Part shown: piece after piece, positions 1 through 61,243 of the stretch
Layout: each line of letters opens with the position of its first letter
Position numbering within the stretch: the stretch's first letter is position 1
Assembly (NCBI GenBank): GCA_029582155.1
Contig: CM055906.1
Span: 19,020,437-19,084,436, forward strand
From: Panopea generosa
Lineage: Eukaryota > Mollusca > Bivalvia > Adapedonta > Hiatellidae
Direction of reading: 5' to 3'
Length of the DNA: 64,000 nucleotides
Translations under genes and position numbers: made by a program
Notes under the pieces: generated by a model
Databases searched by the model: none
What the model was told of the DNA's origin: nothing
What the model saw: the letters and a program-made list of their open reading frames with translations, nothing else

Positions 1-387
1 TTTTACATGTGAATACATTTCTGCTTTGGAAAAATAAATCGTATGTGGGCATTTTTTACTGAGAAAAGTCTAGATCTTATTTTATATGGAACATGTATCA
101 AAACTTATTTATACTGAACAAACCAACTAACCCGCCATTTTTATATTTCCAATATATTTCTCAATATATTGAGTAGCATTATTAAAAGTGGTTTACAACA
201 TTAACAGACAATAATGTATTGATTTTATATAGCCTAAATGTCATTATTATGAGGAAATTTTAATTCTTTTCGAGAAAATACACAAAATATCAGGGACATG
301 AAATGTGAGGTGGCGGGTAAGCAGTTCTGTTAATTATATATAGTGAGACCTGAAATGATGTCATTTGTCAGTCTTGTATGATTTCAG

Positions 388-3094: not shown

Positions 3095-3624
3095 GTAAAT
3101 GTTGTTATGTCATGGAACTGGTAATGATTTGTATTTGGCACATGATGTTTGATATAACACTTGGTTAATATCTCTATAGATTCATCACTTGGTGTTGTCC
3201 ATATAACTCAGGCCTCAGCTCTAGGGCCTAAAATGCCAAACTATTTTCCAACTTGGCAGAACACCTAAATGAAGTTGATTTGTCATGGTGAAATTCCATA
3301 CTTTTGATACATTACTTCATATAGTGACTGATGGAAACTAATATATGCGAAGTGTTACATATAGAATCTTGGAAAACTGATTGTCTTGTTTTTGATTTAT
3401 GAAATGTGTGACAAAAAAATCTTTAATTTGTACTCATTCATTACCAAATTAACTCATTGACAAAAATCTTTTCAAACCTATTTAATAAATTCAATGATAA
3501 ATGAATGCTCATGTAAGATCCTCACATGATTATAATGATTACTACATTCTAATCTAACAGTTGTGTTCATTGATATATGGAGACAACTAAACTCCAGCAT
3601 GGAGCGCGTGGTCTGGAGTTAGAT

Positions 3625-3925
3625 TTGTTTGTTTGAATGTTTAAATCAGATGCCTTCGAAGACTTACAGGCGATCAACTAACCTTACCGATATTTCGTGG
3701 GATCCTGGAAGGTTAACCAGTACTCGAGCACACCCCATCTCCACAAGTAACTGATAACTCTCCCCACTTTAATCAGCGGCGAGAGACGAATGATAATGAG
3801 CTGAATGTCGTATATCAGTCATCGTGGAGACTGTGGCTGAGCAGTGATTCGAACTCACGACCCCTGGATTGATAGTCAGACGCGTTATCGACTGAGCTGA
3901 TCAGGCCTGGCTATAACAAATAAAA
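3625..3925 (-). mobile_element. tRNA-derived SINE, family A
   Basis: Read on the minus strand it has a tRNA-like head with B-box-like GGGTCGTGAGTTCGAATC near 3860, a body with CTCTCGCCGCTGATTAAAGT, and the family-A tail near 3640. Other copies of the family: 27385, 41690, 55421. Confidence 0.75.
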
Positions 3926-4189
3926 CTGCATTTACACTAAGAGAATGTGAAATGACCATGAGAAGAAAAAGATGTCATTCATTTTGATAATAGGGATATT
4001 GCATAAAATTATGTTCAGCATCTTTCCTTTCGTATCTGCATAACGCACACAAGTGATTTATGTCCTTATTTAAGGTAGTTTGTGGTGTTCCTATCAAATT
4101 TTTTTGACATCTGGCATTAATTATCAAAAATCTGTACACTTATACTATGAAGTATAAGCTTTCAATTTAGCTTTGTTTTAATATAATAC

Positions 4190-4842
4190 TGTTTGTGAAC
4201 AGCGCCCACTAGTGGTATGTGCTTTTCATACGATTTTCGTCATTTTTTCCTTATAAAATGGTCAATATTAATTGAAAATTGTTTTTAATAACATTATTAA
4301 ATTATTTATTTTATTTCCTGTGATAAGATTGTAACTTTAATACAGATAAATTTCAATTTGTGTTACCTTTACATCTTATCATTATGCCGAAGTTTATTAA
4401 AAAGCGGGTTTAAAAACAACAGATTTTGAACATTCACGCTTGATTGCGTAAAAATGCTCTGGTACAAGTTCTTGAATTTTTACAAATGTGAAACTTTATC
4501 CATTTCACTACAATATGACTGAATAAAAAGAATGTTTTTTCACGCTAGTTTTTTCATATATCCGAATTTAAATTAAAAATGAAGCACTTAAAAACACATG
4601 ATGTTTGTCTGCTATTTCGGATGACGTCGTATTTTACCTTAGTATTATATGGGGTTCTCTTGACGTCGTCCGAAGTCATAATGAAACGTGTTTTTAAGTG
4701 TTTCATTTTAATTTAAATTCAAATTTATGAAAGAAACTAGCACAAACATCCCATATTTTTATTTGTTCATATTTTAGTAAAATTAATAAAGTTTACCATA
4801 ATATGAAATTCAGGGAATGCTGCGAAACTACCTTAAGTTACT
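4190..4842. mobile_element. Fold-back / MITE-like element, truncated by the gap
   Basis: Starts near GAACAGCGCCCACTAGTGGT. The segment around 4533-4606 (CTAGTTTTTTCATATATCCG, then CACTTAAAAACAC) is repeated inverted at 4686-4750. Related copy in reverse at 63006-64000. Confidence 0.7.
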
Positions 4843-5342
4843 NNNNNNNNNNNNNNNNNNNNNNNNNNNNNNNNNNNNNNNNNNNNNNNNNNNNNNNNNN
4901 NNNNNNNNNNNNNNNNNNNNNNNNNNNNNNNNNNNNNNNNNNNNNNNNNNNNNNNNNNNNNNNNNNNNNNNNNNNNNNNNNNNNNNNNNNNNNNNNNNNN
5001 NNNNNNNNNNNNNNNNNNNNNNNNNNNNNNNNNNNNNNNNNNNNNNNNNNNNNNNNNNNNNNNNNNNNNNNNNNNNNNNNNNNNNNNNNNNNNNNNNNNN
5101 NNNNNNNNNNNNNNNNNNNNNNNNNNNNNNNNNNNNNNNNNNNNNNNNNNNNNNNNNNNNNNNNNNNNNNNNNNNNNNNNNNNNNNNNNNNNNNNNNNNN
5201 NNNNNNNNNNNNNNNNNNNNNNNNNNNNNNNNNNNNNNNNNNNNNNNNNNNNNNNNNNNNNNNNNNNNNNNNNNNNNNNNNNNNNNNNNNNNNNNNNNNN
5301 NNNNNNNNNNNNNNNNNNNNNNNNNNNNNNNNNNNNNNNNNN
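4843..5342. other. Assembly gap of exactly 500 N
   Basis: A round 500-base N run is a scaffold placeholder, so true gap size and even adjacency are unknown. Its left edge lies in a fold-back repeat. Confidence 0.98.
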
Positions 5343-14759: not shown

Positions 14760-15885
14760 ACAACATAACGATAAGTCAACCGAACATAATGACATGTGAA
14801 CCTTACATCAACCGATCATAATTAAATGTGAACAGAACATAATGTTAATATAACCGACAATGACGAGACCAAGTTCAATGTTATACCAACCAACACATAA
14901 TGATATACAACCCAACATAATGATGAGACAACCCAACACAATGATGAGATGAACCCAACACAATGCTTAACAACCTATTATAATGAGTATACAACACAAC
15001 ATAATGATGAGACAACCCAACACAATGTTATAGCAACCCAACACAATGATATACAACCTAACATAATGATGAGGCAACCAACACAATGCTATGACAACCC
15101 AACACATCGATTTTACAACCCAACATAATGACGAAACAACCCAAAATAATGATGAGACAACCCAACACAATGATTTGACAACCCAACATAATGAATATAC
15201 AACCCAACCTAATGATGAGGCAACCCATCACAATGTATGACAACCCAGCATAATGAGTATACAATCCAACATAATGATGAGACAACCCAACACAATGATT
15301 ATACATCCCAACACAATGATGAGGCAACACAACACAATGATTATATAACCCAACATAATGATGAGGCAACCAAACACAATGATTATTCAACCCAACATAA
15401 TGATGAGGCAACCCAACAAATGCTATGACAACCCAACATAATGAATATACAACCCAACAATATGATGAGGCAACCCATCACAATGCTATGACAACCCAAC
15501 ATTATGGATATACAGCCCAACCTAATGTTGAAGCAACCGATCACAATGGTATGACAACCCAGCATAATGATTATACAACCGAAAATAATGTAATGACGAC
15601 CCATTATAATGATGAGACAACTCAACACAACCCAACATAAAGATGAGGCAACCCATCACAATGCTATGACAACCCAACATAATGGATATACAACCCAACC
15701 TAATGTTGAGGCAACCCATCACAATGCTATGACAATCCAACATAATGATGAGACAACCCAACATAATGCTATGACATCCCAACATAATGATAAGACAATC
15801 CAACATAATGCTATGACAACCCAACATAATGCTATGACAACCCAACATAATGATGAGACAACCCAACACAATGATTAAATGACCC
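14760..15885. repeat. 1.1-kb minisatellite with ~21-bp units
   Basis: About fifty diverged units of ACAACCCAACATAATGATGA type, with longer higher-order units (CAATGCTATGACAACCCAAC alternating with GGATATACAACCCAACC) near 15640-15850. It starts right next to the end of the 14285-14745 repeat. The open frames seen on both strands are a by-product of the 21-bp period. Confidence 0.9.
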
Positions 15886-43600: not shown

Positions 43601-44492
43601 TTACTAAGATATTGTTAAAAATGGTGTTTAATATGATTCAACATGGCATGACCTGACACAACACCACACCAATTACAATACAATACATGGTGTTTAATAT
43701 GATTCAACATGGCATGACCTGACACAACACCACACCAATTACAATACAATACATGGTGTTTAATATGATTCAACATGGCATGACCTGACACAACACCACA
43801 CCAATTACAATACAATGTACTAATATACTTTCAGTGGGATGACTCGTATATCTACCTAATCATGGAGTACTGTAGCGGGGGTGACCTGTCACATTTCATA
43901 CGTAGTAAGAGAATGCTACCTGAACACATTGTACGGAAATTCCTGAGACAAATTGGTAAGTTTGGTCAAATTCAATATCTGCTATTTATTTTACTGAATT
44001 AATTTTGCGTTGATAGTGAAACAAGTTTAGAAAGTGAAACTTAAAAAGAAATTGTTTATTGTCTTCCTGGTTCGAGAAAGTATGCAAATGAAAATGTCTG
44101 ATTGCCCTTCCAAAAAATTAGATATTTATTGAGAAAGATGCTTTAAAAATATGAGAATGCAGAAGAGATAAATAAGGTTGTGGCAATGGTGTTTTTATTA
44201 AATTGTATATTCAGAGAATAGTAATCAGCTTTATTAAGATGTATCTATCTGAAAACATCATCCACTAATCTAACTGAATGCCATTTTACAACATATATAA
44301 TCTGTTGAAAATGACGTTTAATCTCAAAAATGTGTTGACTGAATTAGTTTTCAGGTATAGTTAAACAATAATTAATTGACAACATACATAGTAATCGTAC
44401 ATTCAATAACGAGTGAAAAGTATTCCGAAGATAGCTATAACAGCATATATGTATCTGTTTCTTAATTATGTAAAGTAAAGTGCGATTATTGA

Positions 44493-44530
<38 letters not shown>

Positions 44531-47500
44531 CCTACATTGCGGAAGGACGGTGGTTTGGATTCATCCACCATCAAAATTGAAAAATTGAATATGTCATAAT
44601 CAACCTGAAATGTTTTGGTAATGGTGTTTAAACCCCATTAAAATAAAAAAAAATAAAAAAAATCCACTTATGCTGGTATCAATTTACAGAGATTGGTGAT
44701 TATGCATGTTTAGACTTGCTTGTAACACAAGATGGCTACCTGGCATGTTATGTTTTATTTCTTAATCCTTGTATATGTTTGATCAACAGTGGCAGCCATG
44801 CAGTACCTGTGGGAGCACAACGTGGCTCATATGGACCTCAAACCACAAAACATTCTCTGTACATCTGTCTCTGATCCTGTCTTAAAAATAGCAGGTATGG
44901 TATATAGCATTGTTTGTAGTAAAGTAAGAAGTTTATTCTATAATAAATTAATTCCTAGATTTTCTTCTTTGCTCATTCCCTTGTTTTACCCATCCCAACT
45001 AGTTTATTGTCAAAAAATATAAATGTTTTTTTATTTGTTTGTTTGGTTTTTTATTGAAAAAACGGTACCACTACCCAAAATTAGCCAAAAGTGTCGCGTT
45101 TTAAATCTTTTTGGTTTTTAAAGATTTTTTCCACTTCATGCCTTATAACTTATGACACTCCTGTTTTAATATATGAAATATTAAATATTAAAAAATAAAA
45201 TTATATCCATTGCCTCTATTTTGACACAAATTTGGATTTGAAATGGTTTGTTTAAAACCTCAATTGACTTTAATTTACAAAAAAAAGTCTTTGATTTTGT
45301 CAGCTTCCTAAAGCCAAAGGCCAAACTACTAAAAAAGATATAGTACAGTATAATGTTAATAATTGTAAGGGTTTGACTGACATGGGAGAAGATGTATTGA
45401 TAAACATGTACTGTTTTGCAGTTCATCACTAGTTACATACTTGGTATATGTATATTTTATAATTTATTTGAAAAAGAAATGATATTATATGAATGCGATG
45501 GGAGTTTTTAACATTTATTCAATTTGAAAATATAGCATCATCAGATTAATATTGATGAAAAAAGCTATTTTATAAATTTTTTACATAATAAATACATGTA
45601 TAATCTTTTTTCTATAGATTTTGGATTTGCCAAGCACTTATTCCAAGGAGATAAAATGTATGCATTGAGGGGCAGTCCCCTGTACATGGCCCCAGAGATT
45701 ATATGTAGAGGACAGTATGATGCTAGAGTTGATCTCTGGTCTATAGGAGTTATATTATATGGCAAGTATATTATCTATAGATATCTAGTTTATAGGAGTT
45801 AAATTATATGGCAAGTGTATTATCTATAGATATCTAGTTTATAGGAGTTATATTATATGGCAAGTGTATTATTTATAGATATCTAGTTTATAGTAGTTAT
45901 TAGAATGCGAGCAAAGCTCTGACTTCCTTAGCTGTCATGCAGCCCCAACAATTTGCTATACAAACTACGTATTGCAGGAACCACCATATTCATCCGACCG
46001 ATAAAGTAGTTCACAACCTTCAACACGCATTTACCGTAGCAGAGGATGTATTATGCAACAAAAATTTCAAAGTTTTTTATTTATTGCGGATGTTTTTCTT
46101 TACAAAAGTTCAAAAATATGATACGGGAAGCATACAATTTGCATGGAAATGTGGAAGAATACACTTATCTCACTGTGCTCTAAAAAGTGCGGCAATTTTC
46201 ATTGATAAAAAATGTTTTACGCATTTACTACTATGCATGGTGACGTCATCAGGTGAGATATAATCTCAAACACCATCCGACATGTAATCATTAATGGGGT
46301 GAAATTTCAATATAATAACTCATAGTTTGGGTAAATAGTGATTGTTAGTGAAATTTTATTCACTACGGATTGTCCTCTTTTGATTTTGATTGTAAAATAA
46401 CGAATTTAGGTTCGGGGGCTACGTTTGTTGTTTATAGAAAAACGCGCCAATCTGTCATCTTATGCAAGCAGTATATTGATGAACATATTTAACGGTTAAT
46501 TAGGTCATCCAAACGTTATGTTTGTTGTGTTTCGGTGTTGTATTTCTAAATCTAGGTCACGCAACACCGTTTATAATGCTATTTTTTGATTATGTATATT
46601 GTTGATTGAAAGCTATATGAGAACATAACTCAAGTCAATATACGCGTAAATCTATAAGTAGGTCATGTTTGTTTTGGTCTAGACAAAGTGTCGTATATTC
46701 TCTGACAATCAGGAACATTTTGTGCTGAGTGCGTTTTGTTATCCGTAAATCATAACTATTGAACTGGAGATATTAAAATTGACTAGAGTTGTACATCACT
46801 ACTCAATTCTTTCGATTTTGGAAAAACATCAGAATATGAAGGTTTGTTTGTGAAGCTTTCCTATAGATTGTACATGTTGATAACATTTATGTGGAGATGT
46901 GGAAAGGAATCCTGGACCACCACGTTACCAGTTTACAAAATGTCCTGAAATGGATATTTTCACCAGGATCATCAAATATTCTGTCAATTTTCACATGGAA
47001 GACGGTGTATACCATGGTGTTTGCATTTTTTCAAATGCATTATTAAAACCGTTTGATAGCTACTGTTGGAAAAATATTGATTTGGACTCTGTATTGTATG
47101 CAGGAGATTATTTATACAGATACACAAAATAAATATTAAGCACATCACATTCTTTTCTAAATCCCAATGAATTGCCTTTAACATAATATCAGAAATCTAA
47201 CTAAGTTTTCCAACTTTCCGAACCTACATTTTCGAATTAACACAAACAGCGAGCCTTCCCTCAAGCCCTTCAGGCCTTTGATATTATATGGCAAGTATAT
47301 TATCTGCAGATATCTAGTTTATAGGAGTTATACAATATGGCAAGTACTTTATCTATAGATATCTAGTTTATTGGAGTGATATTATATGGCAAGTATATTA
47401 TATATAGATGTCTAGTTTATTGGAGTGATATTATATGGCAAGTATATTATCTATAGATATCTAGTTTATTGGAGTGATATTATATGGCAAGTATATTATC

Positions 47501-50500
47501 TATAGATATCTAGTTTATTGGAGTGATATATGGCAAGTATATTATCTATAGATATCTAGTTTATTGGAGTGATATTATATGGCAAGTATATTATCTATAG
47601 ATATCTAGTTTATTGGAGTGATATTATATGGAAGATGTATTATCTATACTGATAGGTATATTGTCCATGTTCTATAGAATTCAGTGTCTTGTTTTAAACA
47701 TTTAAGCAGATAGTGGCCATATTTGACCAGGAAGCATTGTTATATTAAACACATTCAAGGATATGAGTGTCTTAATGTCACATATTCCATGTTTTGGGGA
47801 ACTGAAATGTCCATTTCCTAGGAATAATTGTAAAAAATCATCTTCTGAGATTACAAGGTGAATATCTCGGCTTGAATAATTTTTTTCGGAACTTTATCAA
47901 ATTGTCATTCTGGGTTCAAATATGTCCCTGTCCCCAAGTGTTGGACTTATAATTTTTTAAATATAGACTTACTAGTACATGTACAAATATGATTTAAAAT
48001 AAAATGTTTTGCAGAAAGCACAAGACTTACAATCGTGATAACCCAGTTGTTTTACATTTCAGAATGTTTATTTGGAAGAGCTCCGTATGCTTCAAAAACT
48101 TTTAAAGAACTTGAGGGAAAGATATGGGATCCAAAACCTATTGAAGTAAGTCTCTGTTTAATTATATAAATATATAAGAATTACGTCATTAGAAGTTTAG
48201 AATGTCAGCTGTATTTTGGCGAGTGTAAGAAAAGTAATAGATGCAAACCTTTGGCAAGCAAAATATTTTGTCATTGCATAAAAGACATCAGTTAGTGGTT
48301 GAATATGACATTGCATGCTGGCGAGTCACCTGCAGCAAAGAAATAGTTTGATGATCAAACCAACTATTGCAGTGGTTTTGGGTTTGCCATGTGTATTTAA
48401 TATTTCTATACTAAAATATGTTTGTACCTAATCATTCAATCACAATATTTTCTTGCCAATACAGCATTAACTCTAGATTTAAAAATAGTCATGGGGGAAA
48501 TGTAGTTAAAGGTGAAAGTTGCTTGATAAATAAAGTTTTAAAGGTATAAATTGATGTTTGTACCTACACAAACATGTAATCCATTAATGAAATAGGCGAC
48601 CTCAGGATGCCAATTACATACAACAATTATAGATATTAGGTTGTGCTCATTTGTATATGAAATACATTAAACCCATATAGTGTTGTTGATTCTTTAATTT
48701 AGAAAGTTAGGCACTATATAATATGTCAGATATAATTTACAGCTGGTCAGATTTGTTTTATTTTGTATATTAAAACCTATGACTTCCTTTATCCTAGATG
48801 AAAATGCCTTACTATTTTAAAGAATCATTGTAAGATATGTACTATACAATGCGTTACTGAAATATGTTGTCATATGTCTGCAGATTTCTCATCCAAATAT
48901 GTTTCTGAACATTACACTGTAACATAACTTTACAGTAATCTCTTACAAAATTGTTCCATACTTTGACACTTTGATTCAGGGAACCATTTTTATTTCAGAC
49001 TGAAAAACTGAATTTTGACTGGTTATTTATCTTTTGAATAAACAATATCATTGAAACCATATGCAGATTTATTGGAACCAGTCTAAAATCATGATTGCCC
49101 AGCTGCTTTTCTCAAATCTAAGTTTACAGTTATATACATGTACTTAAATAGACTGGTGAATGTAGAATCATAGAGCCCGTTCAGTTTTGTTCTAGAATAC
49201 AATATCACTAAGTCTGTACTAGGAGCTGTGGGAGGTTTTGTGTATTTCATCAACTCTCATGAACAGATTCAGTTAAACCGAATCTGATATTTTCTTCATT
49301 TGGTTTGATTCTGTACTTTGAAGCGATTCTTTTATCAGATATTATTGTAATATTTCCGGAGCTTTTCTCAAGTTAAGGCCGTTGATCTCCTTTATCATCG
49401 TACAATTATATATTTAGTTGATTCATTGACATTAATAATGTATTACAGTTGCCGTATGGTGTAAATATATCTGACAACTGCCGAGATCTACTGCTGCGTA
49501 TGCTTAAACGCCGTCCGAATGACAGGATTCTATTTGAGGAGTTCTTTGTTCATCCATTCCTTGATCTCGAACACATGCCATCCAGTAGCAGTCTGCCTAC
49601 AGCTGTGAGTACTCATGTACTAAATGTTATATTCATTTATCATATCATAATATATAATTCTACATAATAAAGTGGGAGTAAAATAAACTTCTGCTTTATC
49701 AGCAGGGAAGGTTTATTTTGCAAGAACACACAAATTGATGACATCATTGTTTTTTGCGTTGTGTTAAACCCACATATAAACACATAATTTTATGGTGCGG
49801 AAGTGTAATAAACAGATGTCATATTTTTTATATTAACCTAGTGTAATACCACTTCTGATTGATCGCTCAGTGTTTATCGCACAACTAGTCTCTTGTATGA
49901 TATATAAGTGACATCAAGTTGTCATGGTAAAATGATGCTATTTTGTTATGTTACATAATATGGTGCCTGACAGAAATAATGTGGCCGATTTAATCTTGTT
50001 CATTAGAAAGATGATTTGTTAAATAGATGCTTAAAATGTACCATTTCCTTGAGTTATGTGATAAAAAGAAACCTAATTCGTATTTATTCATAATTTGATT
50101 TTTTAAACTCATTGGTAGAAATGATAAAGCAGAGCCGGGTGTTTATATTTTTACCAACTTATTTAATAAATTCAATAATAAATAATATTCATGTAGGATC
50201 CTATATGTAAAAATCAATAGATTTCAACTTAAATATTCAGTTTGTTTATTCGTGCTATTAAATTGGACTACATTTCACTTGTTTTCTTATCGGCAACATC
50301 TATGCAACGTTCACTAGTTTTTAGTTCGCTGGGATGAAGTCCAAGGAGAGCTATTGCCATGACCCCAGCGTCGTCGTCGGCATCATCGTCATCTGTAGAC
50401 ACCCAGGTTAAACTTTTGAGTTTAAGTTTTTAAGATATCTATGCAACCACTCAATGAAACATCACACATGTGTTCACCATCATCAATGGAACACACAGAC

Positions 50501-53500
50501 AAGAACCATAACACTGGATTGCATTTTGGCACAGTAACATGTATGGCTCTTTTTCGACTTAGACACCCAGGGGAGAGCTTTATTATCTTCTGACAACTCT
50601 TGTTATATGGCATTTTGAGGCTCTTTCAATTATTCTATTTTACTTTTAAATTAATAGTTACTTTAAACATTTCTGAATAGTATTTAACATTTTCAAGATT
50701 AATATTCCATATAATAAACATTTTCTAGTACATGTTTATTCATGTACTTCGGGAATCACATGACTATTATTATCAGTGTTTCCATTAGGTACAATTTTTT
50801 AAGTACTTATTTGACAACAGTAAAGTTCACTAAATGAGACTTCTTTTCAATACATACATATATGTGTTAATTAGACCTACCGGTAGTTTGTTTTATTTCT
50901 GCAGTGTGTGGAATAAGTCAAAAAGTGATTTTGCACATTTAGAGCATGCTTTATTACTGAATTTAAACTCACTTCCTGTATCACAAAACTACATCGATAT
51001 GTGACCAATATAAAATATACACATTACAAAGCTATACATTTTCCGCATTCTGTGAATTTCAAAGAAATAGTTGATGCATTGGCAAAAGATTTTAAAATGA
51101 ACTGAGATTGTTTGCTGATCTTTATTGAGAACACGTACCAATGAAGATTACCTGGGTCCTACTGGAGTGTGATGTTAAACAGGTGAAGGTTCGAGTATTT
51201 GGTTTATCTGTATTTAAAGATAATTCTGATCTTGAGTTGTTGTTTTTTTGCTTTCAGACTAAACTAGTCAAAGAAGCTGTTGATTTAGATGCAGCTGGAG
51301 ATTACCCAGAAGCTGTGAAGAAATATTGCGAGGCTGTGGAATACTTTCTACCTGCCATTCAATGTAAGTATTTCATAATAAAATACTGTGTTCAGTTTTT
51401 GAAAATACTTGTGCATTGTTCCCCTGCAAGTGAAGTTTGAGAGTGGGTATATAGAGTCTCTGTGTCTGTTGGTCAGTTTGACAGTAACTTGCAGTGTGAA
51501 CTACTGCCACAAGATGGATCTGAAACTTTAGGTACAGGATCAACATCAAGTGTAGATGATACACATTTTGTGACACTGACTTAACCCCATGCAGAGTTAT
51601 TATTGCCCTAGTTAGCTGTATTTACCATATTGCAATTCTTGTGGAGGGAACTACTTCCTCAGTTTTAAGGCAATTGACTTGAAATTTTTCATACATGATC
51701 ACCATCCAGTGCAGATGTACATGACATAAATTTTGTATTCAGTACCAGTAAAAATGTAATTTATACATGTAGTTGTGGATGTAATTTATACATGTAGTTG
51801 TGGATGTAATTTATACATGTAGTTGTGGATGTAATTCATACATGTAGTTGTGGATGTAAGTTATACATGTAGTTGTGGATGTAATTTATACATGTAGTTG
51901 TGGATGTAAGTTATACATGTAGTTGTGGATGTAATTCATACATGTAGTTGTGGATGTAAGTTATACATGTAGTTGTGGATGTAATTTATACATGTAGTTG
52001 TCGATGTAATTTATACATGTAGTTGTGGATGTAAGTTATACATGTAGTTGTGGATGTAAGGTATACATGTAGTTGTGGATGTAATTTATACAATATCCAT
52101 TCAAATACCCATTTAAGTTTGAGGAAAAAAACAGACATTATTTTGAAAGGTAGTGATGGTAATCGTCTGGCTATTTGTACATCAGAAATGTTGCTTATTT
52201 ATCTTCCCCCATCATAAATTATTTTGAAATTCATTTTTATTTAATTGAAATGAATACTTTTATTGAGGTATAACTAATCACTGAGTCTTCCATATTGTTA
52301 TTTTGTGAATACTTCACATACTTAAGGACTGAACTGAAGAGAGGGATAGGTAACTTCCTTCTCCCGACTAAATACCAAGGACTTATATATAGAAGGACAG
52401 GAATATATTAACCCATCATGAGTATCCATATAGGATAGAAGTATCTCACCCGAGGGGTTAAAATTACATGCTGGGATGAGGCTCTGCCAAGTTCCCTGTA
52501 TGTAATTTAGAACCAGAGGGTGTGATTTCTATCCAATATGGATGAACTCATGTTGGATTTTTTTTCTCCCATTTATCTTAGTCAAATGATAGATCCTCGA
52601 TAACAGCCTTCATCACAAAAATATTCTACTTTTTAAATGCATGTTCAACACTCACAATTTTACATATGAATGAAGAAATGGACATTTAAAAGTACATACT
52701 AAAAGTATGAACCAGGAATTACACCTGATAATCTCTCCACATATTGTTTAAAGTATTCAATTTAGATATAAATTGTACTCTCATATTACCCTATTCTAGT
52801 AGGTAAGCAAGACATCATAAATATATACGTTGATGTCATTATTCTGACGTAACGTCTGTCACTTTTTTTACGCTTTCCTACAACAAAATCAAGTTTTAAA
52901 ACATATATCGTAGGCTTGAAAATGCAAATATATAGTATTATGATTTGTTGATAAAGTAATAGACTACAAAAATTGATTTAGTTTAAAATATTTCGTCAGG
53001 TCATGTGAGAATGCTGTCATATGACATGGTAAATATCAAGGATTTATGAAGAGAAGGATAGGAAACATCCATCTCCCAACTAAATACCTAGGATTTATAT
53101 AGAGAAGGATAAGTACGTCAATCTTCTGACTAAATACCAAGGATTTATATAGAGAAGGATAGGAAACTTCTGTCTCCAGACTAAATACCAAGGATTTATA
53201 TACAGAAGGATAGGAAACTTTGATCTCCAGACTAAATACCAAGGATTTATATAGAGAAGGATAGGAAACTTTTATCCCATGACTAAATACCAAGGATTTT
53301 TATAGACAAGGATAGGAAACTTCCATCTCCAGACCAAATACCAAGGATTTAAATTGAGAAGGATAGGAAACAACCATCTTCAGACTAAATTCCAAGGACT
53401 TTTTTAGAGAAGAATAGAAAACTTCCCACAACTAAATACCAAGGATTTATATAGAAAAGGATAGGAAACTTTCATCCAGTGACTAAATACCAAGGATTTT

Positions 53501-56500
53501 TATAGAGAAGGACAGGAAACTTTCATCCCATGACTAAATACCAAGGATTTATATAGAGAAAGATAGGAAACTTCCATCTCCAGATTAAATACCAAGGATT
53601 TATATAGAGTAGGATAGGAAAGGCCCATCTCTAGATTAAATAACAAGGATTTATATAGAGAAGGATAGGAGACATCCATCTCCAGACTAAATACCAAGGA
53701 TTTTAATAGAGTTCAGATTGCTCGTAATGAGCAATCTGAACACTTCCTGCACTGTTTTCCACTCTGTCAGTTAATACAAACATAATTCACCCAATAATTC
53801 AAAAGCCTTATATATTAGAGGTGTCCAAAGGCGTCTATATGAAGTAAAGGGTTAAAGCATTCGTGAAATGTTGAATTTGCAATGTTTGAAAAGTGAAACT
53901 GCTGGAAATGCATATTTGGATATACATTCTGACAGTGACATGATTGTAATTTTAGCAAAATCTTCGAATGCGAAAGGATTGAAACTCGTGAATAATAGCA
54001 AAAATAAGGTTCTTGATAATAAAATGTGTTTTACAGTATTCTGTTTTGAGCTGCACTTTGAATTAATACTTTATCATGTGGGTGAATCTCATCAAAGCTC
54101 ATGTTTTCTGTTTCATTTATACTTTTCAGATGAAAAAGATTCCAACAAAAAGGAAGTATTAAGAAAGAGGGTATGTAGATATGTAACTTGTCCAAGTATC
54201 TGATGTTTGTGTCTTTATCTTTGTGTAAGCAAAATCACAAGGTGTCCTGATGGAAGAACATCCACATCACATGCTTGAGGTTGTAGGTTCAGTTCCAGAC
54301 CAAACAGTTTAATATGTATGTGTACTTAATTAGTTCAGCAGGTCAAGACACTGGGTCGATATCACTGTTTAACTCTGATACGGTTGAACAAATTGTTTAA
54401 ACCTAAACATCATACTAAACAATACATTAAAAAGAAATGGAGAGAATGCTAGACAGGGATCTGTGTATGGCTCCAGTCTCCTGTTGCTATGCATCTTGGG
54501 TTCAAACTTATTTGTTTTACTTCGATTATGAAACAAGTTATTACAATTTAGACAGATCACGCTCGAAGACTTCCTGGTTAGAACCAATACTAAGCATATG
54601 CGGAAAAAGTGTCTTGCTGGAGAATACTTATCATAGCTGTGGGGGAGGGTCAAACCCACGACCCTCAGATCATGGGTTACTACTTGACCATGAGCGCCAC
54701 CTACGCACCTTTGTATTTACCAGAGCCATATATTATGGTTTATAGTATCATTATAATGTAAACATTAATTTAAATAATGTCTTTTTAATTGTTATTAATT
54801 TTGTTGATGGCTGAAGAATTTTTGTTGTCGTTTTGATGTAGATATAATAAAATATTCCTGTCTTATTGAAAAATGACTGAAGGTAAACAGAAGGAAATAA
54901 TAATGTTCCCAGCACATCTGTTCATCCATGTCTGTCCATTACTGCTTACTTTTTCAGGTTTACTCTTTTAACAGTTTTGATGTAATACAATTCAAACTTG
55001 GGGATAAAACATCTCAGATACTGCTATACTGAAAGGATACATAAATGCCAGATGAAATTCAGAGTCACATTGTCAAACTTTTGTAAGCGATATTTACAGT
55101 AAAGGTATTCTATTAATGAGGATCTGAAATTCAGCGAGGATTTCTTTATCCTTTCAGTATATAACATCTTGTGTCTTACAACTGTATACATTCTTGTCTA
55201 GGTAAAGGACTACATGAATCGTGCAGAGGAGTTGAAGATCCAGCTGAAGCCATGTAAAGGGGCAGATAACACACTACAAAGATCCAGGTCTGCAGATTGT
55301 CAGGAGGAGTTGAGTAAGTTTCCTCTAGGTTGGGTAATGTTGTCATGCAGCAAATATTTAGTTTATACCCATTTATTTTAGCTTTATTTCAAAGTCAACT
55401 CAGTAGTCAACCTCCTGGGTGGAGGCCAGGCCCGATAAGCCCAGTCGTTGGCATGTCTGACTATCAATCCAGGGGTTCGAATCACCACTAAACCACAATC
55501 TTCCTGATGGATGATATACAACATTGCATCTCGTTATCATTTGCCTCTCACCACTGATTCAAGTGGTAAAGTTATCAGTTACTTGCGGAGATGGGATGTG
55601 CTTGAGTACTGGTTAACCTTCACGGATTCCAAGAAACAGTGGTACGGTTAACTGATCATCTTTTAGCCCTCAGTGGCATAAAAATGATACTAAATATTCA
55701 ATCAATCAATCAATCCTGGGTAGAACTGGCACAAAGTGCTATTTTAGAGAGGCCAATTGATCATGCTTGGGAATTAACCCGCAACCTCTGACTTGAGCGT
55801 TCAGCATCCTATCCACTGGATTACTGCCTACTTATGTCAGGTTATAACTATTCTAGCAAACCATACATGTACATCTATTATTTTAGGACATTATTCTAAA
55901 AAATATATGTGGATTGGTGTTTTAGATATTTGCTTTTAATATAGGTAGGGGTGATGTGAAATTCACTTCCTATGGGGGGCATATAATTTGTAAACAACAA
56001 ACAAACACATTATTACATTGTATAAACTGGTTAACATACCAGTTATTGTGCATTTTTACATGTGAATACATTTCTGCTTTGGAAAAATAAATCGTATGTG
56101 GGCATTTTTTACTGAGAAAAGTCTAGATCTTATTTTATATGGAACATGTATCAAAACTTATTTATACTGAACAAACCAACTAACCCGCCATTTTTATATT
56201 TCCAATATATTTCTCAATATATTGAGTAGCATTATTAAAAGTGGTTTACAACATTAACAGACAATAATGTATTGATTTTATATAGCCTAAATGTCATTAT
56301 TATGAGGAAATTTTAATTCTTTTCGAGAAAATACACAAAATATCAGGGACATGAAATGTGAGGTGGCGGGTAAGCAGTTCTGTTAATTATATATAGTGAG
56401 ACCTGAAATGATGTCATTTGTCAGTCTTGTATGATTTCAGTGGACCTATATATCGGATGTGATGAAATGGTTGCAGCTATCAAAGTTGTGCAGGCTGCTG

Positions 56501-59500
56501 CTATTGAGGTAAGAAATCAAACCTGTGTTCTCATCAAACTGCCTTACTTTAGTCAAATCTGTCTGTTAGTGTCTGTCTAATCCATCTCCCTTGCTAAATC
56601 AAATGTGTCTGTAGGAGTCTGTTCCATATTAAATGCCTCAACTTATGTCAGATCTGTCTGTTGGAGTCTGTTCCATATTTAATGCCTCAACTTATGTCAG
56701 ATCTGTCTGTTGGAATCTGTTCCATGTTTAATGCCTCAACTTATGTCAGATCTGTCTGTTGGAATCTGTCCCATGTTTAATGCATCAACTTAAGTCAGAT
56801 CTGTCTGTTAATGTATGTCCTCCTATAAATCTGGCTTGCTAAGTCAAAAACAATATATGACTGCAGGAGTACCATATCTGTCTGTCATAATCATCTGTTT
56901 TGAAAATCTGTCTTGCTAAGGCAAGTCTGTCTGTCAGAATCATCTGTTTTGAAAATATGCATTGCTAAGGCAAGTCTGTCAGAATCATCTGTTTAAAAAA
57001 TCCGCATTGCTAAGGCAAGTCTTTCTGTCAGAATTGTCTGTTTTGAAAATCTGTCTTGCTAAGGCAACTCTGTCAGAATCGTCTGTTTTGAAGATCTGCC
57101 TTTCAAATATGTATGTTGGAATCTGTTCCATAAATCTGCCTTGCTAAGTCTAAACTGTTTTTTTCTGTCATTGATACCATTTGAAAATGTAGACCTGAAT
57201 CAACCTGTGGGAAAGTAGCAGTCTTGTCAGGGTCTACATTCTTTGATGCTCAGTCAGTAAGTTATTGACTTTCATTCACAATGATAATGGAATGGTTCAA
57301 ACACAAACATGAAAACATATTTATGGAAAATCTACAAGTTTACGGCAAATCTTTTCTCCAAATCATATTCCACGTGCAACAATTATGTATAGTTCTACCC
57401 TTTTAGAATCTTTTAAAGTTTTTTATCTGTTAGAAATTAAGTAAATAATTTTCTCTTGTTAGGAACCTTAAAATTTTAATGTAGGTAACAGGAAAGATAA
57501 GCAATTAACATCAAATATTTAACACAACTTTTGAATGGTAGTCATGGCAGCTGAGATGAACTTAAAATGAAACAATGATGTTGGCATTGTCTGGTTTTTC
57601 CTCATTGTTGTCGAACCTGCTTGTGGGGAGTTAAAAATAGTCATCACAATAGTGGTACAGTGTACGTGCATGCATGTATCTTGTTCGGGTTGTAACTTTT
57701 TCACGCACAGAGGGATTTTGTAGTAACTTGCATCAAATGTTCAACTTAATGAGGCTTTCTCTTGCGCTTAAGATCCAGGTTCATAGCTCAAAGGTCAAAT
57801 TTAGAGGTCCAAGGCCAGAAACAGGTAAAAAAATGTGTCTGCTCCATATCCTGTAAATCACTCAGCAGTATATTATATGTATCAATACTTTTTAAAATTC
57901 GTTCAGATGCTTTTTACTATTTGTATGTTTCAGGAGGACCAAGAAGACTTTGAACAAGCCATGAAGCATTATGAGCTTTCGCTGGGAACTGCTATACAGT
58001 ATTTAAAAAGTAGGTGAGAATAAGGAAGTTCACTCAGTGACCTGCCTATATAGTAAAAGTATCAGGCAGCATGTAATGTAATAATTTATCAGGCAGCATG
58101 TAATGTACATGTAATGATGTATCACGCAGCATGTAATGTAATAATGTATCAGGCTGCATGTAATGTAATAATGTATCGGGCAACATGTAATGTAATAATG
58201 TACCGGGCTGCATGTAATGTAATAATGTATCGGGCTGCATGTTATGTAATAATGTATCGGGCAGCATGTAATGTAATAATGTATCAGGTAGCATGTAATG
58301 TAATAAATGTATCAGGCAGCATGTAATGTAATTATGTATCTGGCAGCATGTAATGTAACCTTGAAATGTACCTTTTATCTATTCTTATATTAACTATTGT
58401 GAAGTAAAGCAAATATAAGGTTTCACTTTGTCGTGTTTTGTCACCATCCAGCCTGAGTTAATGGTGGGTTAGCTGTTGCGTTCAATATAGTATATAATAA
58501 AAATTATGTACCAGGATATTTGTGTCCCAGCCATTCCAAGAAAGGCAAAGAGGCATTAAGTGTTACCCTGTTCCTCTGTTTGTTCTTTCGTAAAAAAATA
58601 GTTTCTGATCAATAACTTCTGAAGGGGTCTTTATTTGTAATTAATATTTGATTTCTAACACTGTAATCATGAGATTCAGGTCAAGTTTGGTATTTGTGAA
58701 CATCAGTCTAATTTTACAGGAGTTATTACCCATTTTTTACTTAATATTTGGTATATAATTGGTTTTCGATCAATATTAGGGGCATTTATGTCGACAAAAC
58801 TCATTTGTATTTTTTTTATACGAAAGATTTATACCAGGATGCTGATATACATAATGTAAATGCTTGGTGTCTGCATTTGTGGTTAATATTTTGAGAAATT
58901 ATTTTGTTTGTGTTAGTTTAAATAAAAAAATTGAACTAACCATTTCTATTTTAATATAGCATTTTCTTAATTTTCAGCTGAGCCTAAAGGCAAAAGAAAG
59001 GATTTGCTACGTGAAAATGCTGACAGATGGATGACAAAAGCTGAGAGAATTAAATCTTATTTAGCCGCAAAGAAGTGTACAGACACAGAAGAGCAACAAA
59101 AACAGGAACAAAAAGAAGAAGAGGAGGAAAAAAGTGTTTTTAAGACTGGTAAATGTTGTTATGTCATGGAACTGGTAATGATTTGTATTTGGCACATGAT
59201 GTTTGATATAACACTTGGTTAATATCTCTATAGATTCATCACTTGGTGTTGTCCATATAACTCAGGCCTCAGCTCTAGGGCCTAAAATGCCAAACTATTT
59301 TCCAACTTGGCAGAACACCTAAATGAAGTTGATTTGTCATGGTGAAATTCCATACTTTTGATACATTACTTCATATAGTGACTGATGGAAACTAATATAT
59401 GCGAAGTGTTACATATAGAATCTTGGAAAACTGATTGTCTTGTTTTTGATTTATGAAATGTGTGACAAAAAAATCTTTAATTTGTACTCATTCATTACCA

Positions 59501-61243
59501 AATTAACTCATTGACAAAAATCTTTTCAAACCTATTTAATAAATTCAATGATAAATGAATGCTCATGTAAGATCCTCACATGATTATAATGATTACTACA
59601 TTCTAATCTAACAGTTGTGTTCATTGATATATGGAGACAACTAAACTCCAGCATGGAGCGCGTGGTCTGGAGTTAGATTTGTTTGTTTGAATGTTTAAAT
59701 CAGATGCCTTCGAAGACTTACAGGCGATCAACTAACCTTACCGATATTTCGTGGGATCCTGGAAGGTTAACCAGTACTCGAGCACACCCCATCTCCACAA
59801 GTAACTGATAACTCTCCCCACTTTAATCAGCGGCGAGAGACGAATGATAATGAGCTGAATGTCGTATATCAGTCATCGTGGAGACTGTGGCTGAGCAGTG
59901 ATTCGAACTCACGACCCCTGGATTGATAGTCAGACGCGTTATCGACTGAGCTGATCAGGCCTGGCTATAACAAATAAAACTGCATTTACACTAAGAGAAT
60001 GTGAAATGACCATGAGAAGAAAAAGATGTCATTCATTTTGATAATAGGGATATTGCATAAAATTATGTTCAGCATCTTTCCTTTCGTATCTGCATAACGC
60101 ACACAAAGTGATTTATGTCCTTATTTAAGGTAGTTTGTGGTGTTCCTATCAAATTTTTTTGACATCTGGCATTAATTATCAAAAATCTGTACACTTATAC
60201 TATGAAGTATAAGCTTTCAATTTAGCTTTGTTTTAATATAATACTGTTTGTGAACAGCGCCCACTAGTGGTATGTGCTTTTCATACGATTTTCGTCATTT
60301 TTTCCTTATAAAATGGTCAATATTAATTGAAAATTGTTTTTAATAACATTATTAAATTATTTATTTTATTTCCTGTGATAAGATTGTAACTTTAATACAG
60401 ATAAATTTCAATTTGTGTTACCTTTACATCTTATCATTATGCCGAAGTTTATTAAAAAGCGGGTTTAAAAACAACAGATTTTGAACATTCACGCTTGATT
60501 GCGTAAAAATGCTCTGGTACAAGTTCTTGAATTTTTACAAATGTGAAACTTTATCCATTTCACTACAATATGACTGAATAAAAAGAATGTTTTTTCACGC
60601 TAGTTTTTTCATATATCCGAATTTAAATTAAAAATGAAGCACTTAAAAACACATGATGTTTGTCTGCTATTTCGGATGACGTCGTATTTTACCTTAGTAT
60701 TATATGGGGTTCTCTTGACGTCGTCCGAAGTCATAATGAAACGTGTTTTTAAGTGTTTCATTTTAATTTAAATTCAAATTTATGAAAGAAACTAGCACAA
60801 ACATCCCATATTTTTATTTGTTCATATTTTAGTAAAATTAATAAAGTTTACCATAATATGAAATTCAGGGAATGCTGCGAACTACCTTAAGTTACTACAT
60901 CTGTCTCGTAAACAAGCATGTAGTTATTATAATGTCTATTCAGAATAAAAACAACTAGGTACTTTGATGGGTTTAAAAATATGACTTGTAATAAGATATT
61001 TGAAAGATATAAGAGTTTCTGTGTTACATATATTTTCTGGAACAAAGATATATTAAATGATGGAATAAATGATTTTTTTTATATTTGCATTCTCTAGTTT
61101 AATGTTGTTAAATGGTTTTGTTTTGTTATTTTTTTTTTTTTTTTTATATTAAAACACCATTTATTCACATTCTAGATATCAAAAACTTCAGTTAATATCT
61201 TTTTGGTTTACTTTATTTTTCAGTACCTTGCAAAGTTCAGTGA
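40500..61243 (+). CDS. ULK3: ULK3 serine/threonine kinase with two MIT domains, 14 exons, complete
   Basis: Exons: 40500-40643, 42074-42214, 43835-43955, 44790-44894, 45618-45761, 48063-48145, 49449-49604, 51258-51363, 54130-54170, 55202-55313, 56441-56508, 57934-58009, 58978-59148, 61224-61243. They join in phase into 495 residues ending in TGA; human ULK3 is about 472. The kinase domain covers roughly residues 30-286: glycine loop [13 protein letters not shown] (34-46), VAIK-type Lys58 in [13 protein letters not shown] with catalytic Asp151, DFG at 171-173, APE at 195-197, DLWSIG at 209-214. MIT1 is about 299-365 and MIT2 about 385-467, followed by a Glu/Lys/Gln-rich tail ending PCKVQ (human CTLQ). 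In vertebrates ULK3 phosphorylates GLI proteins, acts in autophagy and delays abscission through ESCRT-III; the MIT pair is the ESCRT-III docking part. All introns are GT-AG except intron 5 (GC-AG). The start is the ATG of exon 1, 29 residues before VFTEKLGSG. Identification is very secure; exact small-exon borders are inferred from phase and consensus. Confidence 0.95.
41690..41960 (+). mobile_element. tRNA-derived SINE, family A, in ULK3 intron 1
   Basis: Head GGCCTGATTAGTCTGCCTAT and B box ATGAGTTTGAATCTC, body TTTTCCACCGCTGGTTCAAG, tail GCCCTTGGTGGCATAAAAAT. Confidence 0.8.
42074..42214 (+). CDS. ULK3: ULK3 exon 2: ATP-anchoring lysine and C-helix
   Basis: Residues 49-95, both ends phase 0. 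Contains AAIKCVSK (Lys58) and the helix-C run [20 protein letters not shown], ending VQLKDFQ as in human ULK3. Acceptor tttacag, donor gttagt. Confidence 0.95.
42340..42690. repeat. Interspersed repeat in ULK3 intron 2
   Basis: Shares CACTCTGTCAGTTAATA, TTCACCCAATAATTCAAAAG and GTGTCCAAAGGCGTCTATAT with 53755-53850; an internal 31-bp unit ending GGCGTCTATAT is doubled here only. Confidence 0.65.
43515..43560. repeat. (CAA)n microsatellite
   Basis: CAACAACAACAACAAAAACA and a related CAGCAACAACA. Confidence 0.85.
43621..43816. repeat. 66-bp minisatellite, three near-identical units, next to ULK3 exon 3
   Basis: Units start at 43621, 43687 and 43753 with ATGGTGTTTAATATGATTCA. They end 18 bp before exon 3, so the branch-point region may lie within the last unit. 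Confidence 0.92.
43835..43955 (+). CDS. ULK3: ULK3 exon 3: hinge and helix D
   Basis: Residues 96-135 plus one base. Encodes [21 protein letters not shown], the hinge region, then the ILPE-like segment [15 protein letters not shown] 66-bp minisatellite ends only 18 bp upstream of the exon. Confidence 0.95.
44495..44528. repeat. (AG)n microsatellite
   Basis: About 16 AG dinucleotides at the 5' edge of the SINE that follows. Confidence 0.9.
44529..44665 (+). mobile_element. SINE fragment in ULK3 intron 3
   Basis: Head remnant GACGGTGGTTTGGATTCATC (B box), tail AATGGTGTTTAAACCCCATT then A-rich AATAAAA repeats. Confidence 0.6.
44790..44894 (+). CDS. ULK3: ULK3 exon 4: catalytic loop
   Basis: Residues 136-170 plus one base. 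Carries [10 protein letters not shown] with catalytic Asp151 and Lys153. The arginine of the usual HRD is replaced by Met; human ULK3 also lacks it (HLD), so this is a family trait rather than damage. Confidence 0.95.
45618..45761 (+). CDS. ULK3: ULK3 exon 5: DFG to DLWSIG, with a GC splice donor
   Basis: Residues 171-218 plus one base: [10 protein letters not shown], then [11 protein letters not shown] and [15 protein letters not shown]. The reading frame requires joining ...TTATATG to AATGTTTATTTGG of exon 6 (Y-E-C-L-F-G), so the intron begins GCAAGT, the classic GC-AG donor. No GT site nearby keeps the frame. The last ~21 nt of this exon are the first unit of the downstream 49-bp minisatellite. 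Confidence 0.93.
45741..45899. repeat. 49-bp minisatellite carrying GC splice donors, left block
   Basis: Units are spaced 49 bp, with GGCAAG at 45761 (the real exon 5 end), 45810 and 45859. Each unit repeats the exon's GGAGTTATATTATATG and the donor GCAAGT. Confidence 0.93.
45900..47281 (-). mobile_element. Helitron, 1,382 bp, inserted in the ULK3 minisatellite
   Basis: Read on the minus strand it starts TCAAAGGCCTGAAGGGCTTG and ends GAGCTTTGCTCGCATTCTAA: a 5' TC, a GAGC/GCTC hairpin about 10 nt from the end, and a CTRR (CTAA) terminus. Host sequence is A before and T after, with no target duplication. Removing it restores TAGTAGTTA + TATTATATGG, exactly the minisatellite unit. These are the canonical Helitron marks. 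No Rep/helicase is visible, so it is non-autonomous. A plus-strand frame from 46893 may be captured sequence. Confidence 0.88.
46893..47132 (+). other. Coding fragment inside the Helitron with a 2A-like motif
   Basis: The frame begins GDVERNPGP (46893-46919), matching the 2A consensus D-V/I-E-x-N-P-G-P. It continues ~70 residues including [20 protein letters not shown]. 2A-like peptides are known in the N-termini of some invertebrate LINEs and NLR-type proteins. The source protein is not recognised; it runs antisense to the Helitron. Confidence 0.5.
47282..47640. repeat. 49-bp minisatellite carrying GC splice donors, right block
   Basis: Seven to eight units, with GGCAAG at 47290, 47339, 47388, 47437, 47486, 47532 and 47581, and a decayed unit at 47630. 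One unit is 3 bp short. Confidence 0.93.
48063..48145 (+). CDS. ULK3: ULK3 exon 6: kinase C-lobe
   Basis: Residues 219-246: [20 protein letters not shown] then IWDPKPIE, matching human EALFGQPPFASRSFSELEEKI. Acceptor catttcag, donor gtaagt. Confidence 0.95.
49449..49604 (+). CDS. ULK3: ULK3 exon 7: end of the kinase domain
   Basis: Residues 247-298, phase 0 at both ends. Contains [17 protein letters not shown] with the helix-I region, [12 protein letters not shown], then SLPTA leading into MIT1. The RDLLxRxLxRxPxxRI pattern is typical of the ULK kinase C-lobe. Confidence 0.95.
51258..51363 (+). CDS. ULK3: ULK3 exon 8: MIT domain 1, first part
   Basis: Residues 299-333 plus one base: [20 protein letters not shown] then [15 protein letters not shown], the AxxxDxxGxYxxAxxxYxxAxxxFxPA signature of MIT helices 1-2. 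Joins exon 7 at phase 0 (LPTA-TKLV). Confidence 0.94.
51749..52092. repeat. 25-bp minisatellite in ULK3 intron 8
   Basis: About 14 nearly identical units of TTATACATGTAGTTGTGGAT plus GTAAT; each contains the palindrome TACATGTA. Confidence 0.93.
53040..53708. repeat. 51-bp minisatellite in ULK3 intron 8
   Basis: About 13 units of TAAATACCAAGGATTTATAT then AGAGAAGGATAGGAAAC. A stray related unit lies at 52320-52400. The 51-bp period (17 codons) gives spurious long minus-strand frames. Confidence 0.92.
53711..53741. other. Perfect 13-bp hairpin
   Basis: GTTCAGATTGCTC, loop GTAAT, GAGCAATCTGAAC. Sits exactly between the 51-bp array and an interspersed repeat. Confidence 0.85.
53742..53856. repeat. 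Interspersed repeat in ULK3 intron 8
   Basis: Second copy of the 42500-42650 sequence, up to AAGTAAAGGGTTAAAGC. Confidence 0.7.
54130..54170 (+). CDS. ULK3: ULK3 exon 9: 41-nt exon, MIT1 helix 3 start
   Basis: Completes Y334 and adds [13 protein letters not shown], aligning with human YEVDAQRKEAIKAK. It is only 41 nt long but has acceptor ttttcag and donor gtatgt, and both joins are in phase. Easily missed by gene finders. Confidence 0.9.
54505..54705 (-). mobile_element. tRNA-derived SINE, family D, in ULK3 intron 9
   Basis: Tail AACTTATTTGTTTTACTTCG, body CTTCCTGGTTAGAACCAATA, head with GGGTCAAACCCACGACCC (B box on minus strand). Confidence 0.7.
55202..55313 (+). CDS. ULK3: ULK3 exon 10: MIT1 helix 3 and linker
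   Basis: Residues 348-384: [18 protein letters not shown], the YxxRAEELK signature of MIT helix 3, then a Ser/Arg-rich linker [11 protein letters not shown]. Acceptor gtctag, donor gtaagt. Confidence 0.94.
55371..55832 (-). mobile_element. SINE family D split by a younger SINE
   Basis: Left part 55371-55420, right part 55722-55832 resuming at AGAACTGGCACAAAGTGC; the two halves rejoin to the usual CTGGGTAGAACC of this family. Confidence 0.8.
55421..55713 (+). mobile_element. SINE family A nested in SINE family D
   Basis: 293 bp, flanked by a perfect 8-bp target duplication TCCTGGGT (55413-55420 and 55714-55721). Head CCCGATAAGCCCAGTCGTTG, tail CCCTCAGTGGCATAAAAATG followed by (AATC)n. Confidence 0.9.
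56441..56508 (+). CDS. ULK3: ULK3 exon 11: linker to MIT2
   Basis: Residues 385-407: [20 protein letters not shown] then AIE. Joins exon 10 through a split codon. The same exon occurs at 388-455. Confidence 0.9.
56573..57163. repeat. 49-bp minisatellite in ULK3 intron 11 (copy 2)
   Basis: Identical to the array at 520-1110, as expected from the duplication block. Confidence 0.85.
57934..58009 (+). CDS. ULK3: ULK3 exon 12: MIT domain 2, middle
   Basis: Residues 408-432 plus one base: [20 protein letters not shown] then IQYLK, like human EQDALDLYQHSLGELLLLL. I place the donor at gtaggt (58010), which gives ...YLK-T-EPKGKRK in frame; the gtgaga four bases downstream would run into a stop in exon 13. 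Confidence 0.9.
58065..58364. repeat. 27-bp minisatellite in ULK3 intron 12 (copy 2)
   Basis: Same array as at 2012-2310. Confidence 0.9.
58978..59148 (+). CDS. ULK3: ULK3 exon 13: MIT2 helix 3 and acidic/basic tail
   Basis: Residues 433-489: [20 protein letters not shown], then KAERIKSYL (helix 3 RAEYLK equivalent), then a Glu/Lys/Gln-rich low-complexity tail. Acceptor tttcag, donor gtaaat. Confidence 0.93.
59679..59979 (-). mobile_element. tRNA-derived SINE, family A (second copy of duplicated block)
   Basis: Same insertion as 3625-3925. Confidence 0.75.
60244..60896. mobile_element. Fold-back / MITE-like element in ULK3 intron 13
   Basis: Same element as 4190-4842, here continuous to the right. 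The palindrome centre is near 60690, where TGACGTCGTCCGAA mirrors TTTCGGATGACGTCG. Confidence 0.7.
61224..61243 (+). CDS. ULK3: ULK3 exon 14: last five codons and stop
   Basis: Completes V490 and adds PCKVQ then TGA. The ending resembles the human C-terminus (SSCTLQ). Acceptor tttttcag is strong. An ATTAAA at 61403-61408 is a possible poly(A) signal. Confidence 0.75.

Follow-up and report, generated by a model that had tools for sequence, protein, structure and literature searches.

Mirages are reported to have been described in lancelets by Canestro and colleagues in 2002, and Turri and colleagues are said to have found in 1995 that a minisatellite in the human IFI6 gene gives multiple splice donors. 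In the accessible parts of the later literature, mirages are tandem duplications of exon-intron boundaries, found in amphioxus globin genes and first named in Adh3 (PMC3087553), and the lancelet genes that carry them are given as Adh3, the globins BflGb6 and BflGb9, troponin C and PGBD5 (PMC3087553, PMC3902484). The same partial texts report that amphioxus mirages are unstable in length and regularly spliced, as judged from Adh3 data and globin RT-PCR (PMC3087553), that they do not yield aberrant mRNAs (PMC3087553, PMC3902484), and propose that their arrays feed intron gain (PMC3087553). For human IFI6 (also G1P3 or 6-16), the available text describes two downstream repeat units of the minisatellite that are used as donors, giving isoforms (PMC4526556). 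Moreover, again from texts available in part, tandem repeats at human exon-intron boundaries have been linked to novel introns (PMC2812944), the intronic VNTRs of ABCA7 and MIR137HG are said to alter splicing, and human GC-AG introns are described as having weaker donors and as being preferentially involved in alternative 5' splice-site events.

The array reported here lies at the 3' edge of exon 5 of a ULK3 gene, in a window of 64,000 nucleotides (the whole stretch of DNA that was analysed). Judged by its sequence, it is of a kind already known and belongs with the exon-boundary minisatellites. With the lancelet mirages, as the accessible text portrays them, it shares a minisatellite that spans the boundary (up to 31 nt of exon and 18 nt of intron per 49-bp unit), many copies that carry splice signals (GCAAGT in 10 of 11 units, GC and not GT) and perhaps the homogenisation of some units. 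It differs from them in its GC donor copies and in being split by a Helitron-type element; neither a GC donor nor a transposon split is described for a mirage in the accessible parts of PMC3087553 and PMC3902484. IFI6, as far as its available description goes, is alike in that repeat units act as or resemble donors downstream of the real exon end; isoforms arise there from two downstream units, whereas in ULK3 every downstream unit would lead to truncation. The repeat unit of IFI6 is also far shorter than 49 bp. The ABCA7 and MIR137HG repeats, known to us from partial text, are likened to the array by description only, as tandem repeats linked to splicing. An earlier note on this DNA had called an array seeded by an exon-intron boundary unusual, which is fair, although the class is already in print in the lancelet mirages and IFI6, to judge from the available parts of the reports (PMC3087553, PMC3902484, PMC4526556).

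The gene is encoded on the + strand of the window. Exons 1-7, when joined, have human ULK3 (6fdy) as best match (E 7.3e-115) and ULK1 as second match (E 2.7e-62), with a query that was one residue short at the exon 1/2 joint, restored in later models. A 12-exon model to 58013 adds the MIT domain and ends at the donor of 58013, which was taken without a following exon; a candidate exon at 50340-50406 (67 nt) broke the reading frame and was removed. The ULK3 gene is invertebrate-looking. A search for relatives with the kinase stretch brought up 17 kinase loci from bacteria and nothing from eukaryotic DNA, and in Rfam no family matched at the gathering score. The GC content of the window is 31-34% in 8-kb steps, a composition that may point to a mollusc. 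Because the protein joint of exons 5 and 6 aligns to human ULK3 with zero gaps, the exon 5 donor must be ATG/GCAAGT at 45762 (the slash marks the exon end), which bears out the proposal that the frame calls for a GC-AG intron after 45761. The remaining 11 donors of the 12-exon model are all GT. At the exon 5 donor AAGT follows the GC, and the exon side pairs with U1 at the -1 G only. A GT donor 4 nt downstream (GCAA/GT) was considered but not adopted as the principal donor: it would shift the frame, and across the ten intact units it pairs with U1 at 5-6 of 11 positions. The donor, the array, the insert and the stop can be read directly from the sequence, at these positions:

45618-45761, + strand: ULK3 exon 5, 144 nt, kinase DFG stretch, end ATG/GC (gap-free alignment to human ULK3, gene model)
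45731-45779, + strand: unit 1 (seed), the last 31 nt of exon 5 and the first 18 nt of intron 5
45762-48062, + strand: ULK3 intron 5, 2301 nt, GC-AG, acceptor TTTCAG/AATGTTT; the frame needs the G/GC donor
45780-45899, + strand: units 2 and 3 and the start of unit 4, decoy donors after 45810 and 45859
45800-45802, + strand: TAA stop, reached by any mRNA spliced from a decoy downstream of the true donor
45900-47281, - strand: insert of 1,382 bp inside unit 4, with Helitron-type ends
47282-47648, + strand: remaining part of unit 4, followed by units 5-11; GC donor intact in seven copies and broken in one (47630)
48063-48145, + strand: ULK3 exon 6 (alignment to human ULK3, gene model)

TRF reports the array in two parts with a period of 49 bp, one spanning 45731-45900 with 3.5 copies, the other 47279-47648 with 7.6. 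When the insert is taken out, 11 units stand in a row, nine of the ten steps between them measuring 49 nt and one 46 nt (47486 to 47532), and the step across the insert, 1431 nt, equals 49 + 1382. ATG/GCAAGT is intact after 45761, 45810, 45859, 47290, 47339, 47388, 47437, 47486, 47532 and 47581, that is in the real donor and nine copies, as expected from the suggestion that the repeat units offer decoy donors; in the 11th copy (47630) the donor is broken and reads GGAAGAT. The description of a recurrence every 49 bp, about ten times, thus holds for the ten intact donors, with an eleventh broken and one step of 46 nt added, but what looked like two halves is a single array split by the insert. 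Likewise the exon end and its donor are indeed repeated together, with an exonic share of up to 31 nt, not 21; over the outermost 11 nt of that share the homology is modest (identity at 8 of 11 positions, chance 0.0026 per comparison).

The unit alignment agrees with the idea that the exon boundary itself is the seed of the array. In a control covering 12 ULK3 3' exon edges (last 22 exon and 12 intron nt) and 11 5' edges, the 3' edge of exon 5 alone recurs within its own intron. It does so at 8 places where no fewer than 27 of 34 positions match without gaps, a count that leaves out the unit interrupted by the insert and the one with a 3-nt deletion. None of the other modelled ULK3 exon edges in this set was repeated in its own intron, and the edges of exons 56441-56508 and 57934-58013 match only their own copies in a large duplicate near the start of the window. 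A search of viral contigs for the unit pattern found nothing.

Removal of the insert restores both the exact 49-bp period and the unit sequence. Among nine placements tried, the one between 45899 and 45900 makes the minus strand read host A/TCAA...CTAA/T host, with 5' TC, 3' CTAA, an A/T target and no target duplication. Helitrons are defined by a 5' TC and a 3' CTRR end and by insertion between A and T without target duplication; they carry a stem-loop shortly ahead of the 3' end, and only autonomous ones are expected to encode a Rep/helicase protein. The insert looks as a non-autonomous Helitron would, with Helitron-type ends; it shares the 5' TC, the 3' CTAA and the A/T target with such elements, but its 3' hairpin is weak. 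Drawing 1,382-bp stretches of the window at random, with three placements and both strands considered, gave such ends in 78 of 200000 cases, a chance count that was chosen after the ends had been seen. The hairpin, GAGC-TTT-GCTC, stops 9 nt before the end, and its folding does not surpass that of shuffled sequences (z -0.41), of which 57 in 200 fold equally well. In the two + strand frames that were scanned, no Pfam family, Rep/helicase included, scored above the cut-off, and no further copy of the insert turned up in the window. A short + strand frame at 46884-47129, on the strand opposite to the termini, contains the motif GDVERNPGP, which we take to be 2A-like; this frame had no Pfam family above cut-off.

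As to the consequence of decoy use, the TAA at 45800-45802 sits inside the first retained unit, upstream of the second donor, and for this reason all nine decoys would truncate the kinase. The prediction that decoy-spliced mRNAs meet a stop and are prone to decay therefore stands for nine of nine decoys, although not for the reason given, namely that 49 is not a multiple of three, since the same TAA is hit regardless. This TAA depends on a base that unit 2 alone carries; if that base were as in the other units, the frame would continue to a TAG at 45827. The stop precedes the final junction of the gene model by at least 644 nt, in the version that still contained the dropped 67-nt exon. By the usual rule a stop that far before the last junction makes decay expected, and decoy-spliced mRNAs are probably truncated and decay-prone. 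Use of decoys 2 and 3, at 49 and 98 nt from the true donor, would lengthen the exon by 49 or 98 nt; the other seven of the nine are found past the 1.38-kb insert, over 1.5 kb downstream, and would give an exon 5 of about 1.67 kb or longer.

Over 11 positions, U1 matches the true donor at 8, the nearest two decoys at 7 and six of the seven distant ones at 8 (that at 47339 at 7), and 12 other ULK3 donors (one of them from the exon later dropped) range from 5 to 9. Masking of the decoys by RNA structure was considered and rejected: local accessibility fails to separate the true donor, whose 9-mer accessibility (0.006 and 0.014 under two settings) is within the decoy range. One unit folded as RNA is no stabler than shuffles (z 0.66). 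When the 10 intact units are aligned, variation is confined to 16 of the 49 columns, one of which differs by a gap only, and the 9 donor columns are all constant (P 0.019; P 0.034 in the 9 copies without the exon), P values that are rough because the units are related. The donor sits in the longest stretch of the unit without variation, columns 27-37 when the 10 intact units are compared; a run of that length arises somewhere in 2696 of 20000 shuffles with 10 units and in 5080 with the 9 copies, and stretches as invariant as the donor number 3 of 49, all in the run that holds it. When the broken unit 11 is counted, P becomes 0.51 or 0.62 and the signal is gone. Donor invariance is a hint for a tuning role of the array, not support, and it calls for caution that a further array of about 49 bp in this gene, at 56876-57102, repeats GGCAAGT with no modelled exon edge as its source.

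Unit-to-unit differences bear on how the array arose. Three columns, 4, 8 and 11, set the exon unit apart from every one of the nine other intact units. These nine share one base at column 8 and one at column 11, and at column 4 they all show A except unit 7, which shows G; the broken unit 11 carries the common state at all three. The columns are first or second codon positions of L, W and S in DLWS, a stretch common to human ULK3 and ULK1, and read in the exon frame the copies have TAG where the W codon stands. As the exon could hardly drift at DLWS, the copies would hold the derived state, and a single diverged duplicate is their most likely ancestor. Two further changes are common to units 6-10, which differ pairwise at 0-2 positions, a sign of probable recent spread inside the array. 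Among the inner units, 4 and 5 show as much divergence as unit 1 (5-7 differences); at the edges, units 1 and 11 have both diverged. Private differences occur in several units, and over the whole array distance shows no overall trend with lag (rho 0.07; 1637 of 5000 permutations as large). Units 6-11 might also be read as a fossil exon, by their ATA to ATT and GTT to GTG changes at third-codon positions. This was rejected: units 2-5 keep the exon state, and therefore the changes in units 6-11 more simply mark a later sub-family.

From these patterns we infer a history and a mechanism of expansion. A short tandem duplication over the 3' edge of ULK3 exon 5 would have seeded the minisatellite, and the first 49-bp duplicate, being intronic, would have shed coding constraint, visible in three changed columns and one TAG in the exon frame. 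This diverged duplicate may then have been amplified by slippage or unequal exchange to 11 units in total. A Helitron-type element would have entered unit 4, either before or after the spread of units 6-10.

The array is probably a neutral mirage and no splicing switch, a harmless side effect of the expansion of a repeat, in which some leaky use of decoys may occur. The spliceosome would keep to the first donor, because it is closest to the exon-5 acceptor and its U1 pairing is no worse than that of any copy; with this donor in use, some leak to decoys 2 and 3 is possible, and their occasional use would yield truncated, decay-prone mRNA. Leak or use could be substantial because human GC-AG donors are described as weaker and because repeat units are used in IFI6, according to the partial texts at hand. 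It is conceivable, if rather doubtful, that the array is neutral yet clearly leaky, measurable decoy use being splicing noise without a selected function: decoys 2 and 3 keep 7 of 11 U1 positions against 8 at the true donor, only 49 and 98 nt away, and human GC-AG introns favour alternative 5' sites, whereas RT-PCR on lancelet globin mirages suggested regular splicing in the accessible part of that report (PMC3087553). The earlier note had proposed that decoy choice could tune ULK3 output through decay of mis-spliced mRNA. In such a scheme the copies would compete for U1 and divert a fraction of ULK3 pre-mRNA to decay, with copy number setting the output. The early stop shared by all nine intact decoys, at its distance from the last junction of the model, the donor columns unchanged in 10 of 10 intact units and the IFI6 precedent of repeat units serving as donors, as its available text has it (PMC4526556), fit such a role. 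We nevertheless regard dose tuning of ULK3 by decoys as unlikely, because seven of nine decoys are so far downstream, the nearest two pair slightly less well with U1, donor invariance disappears with unit 11 included, and lancelet mirages are reported, in the parts available, to splice normally (PMC3087553, PMC3902484). A bolder form, in which a GC-donor array of variable copy number with one early stop lets array length set the ULK3 dose, and the transposon insertion reset the dial by putting seven decoys out of range, seems quite improbable.

A mis-join of the assembly as the source of the array, or of its split, we consider highly improbable. Copy number may be wrong because the assembly shows faults, namely a scaffold gap of 500 N at 4843-5342 and a direct duplicate of 4.84 kb (1-4842 against 56054-60896, 99.94% identical) that holds two ULK3 3' exons. 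The left copy stops exactly at the N gap and is for that reason likely a false duplication of the assembly. However, the gap is the sole N run of the window and lies far from the array, private differences distinguish several units, and the insert junctions are base-exact with transposon-type ends.

If the host is not a lancelet, mirages are no cephalochordate speciality. A neutral mirage of this form would moreover offer a clean test of spliceosome choice, the first among ten near-identical weak donors, and it touches the idea that mirages lead to intron gain, as put forward in the accessible part of PMC3087553.

The region as a whole is rich in tandem repeats. Another array of about 49 bp, in a different ULK3 intron (56876-57102, and again at 823-1049), contains GGCAAGT three times, without a tie to any modelled exon edge. 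A perfect tandem repeat of 66 bp x 3 at 43621-43816 lies just upstream of ULK3 exon 3 (start 43835), and further long minisatellites are present at 14877-15875 (21/42/63 bp), 53030-53711 (51 bp) and 51754-52092 (25 bp).
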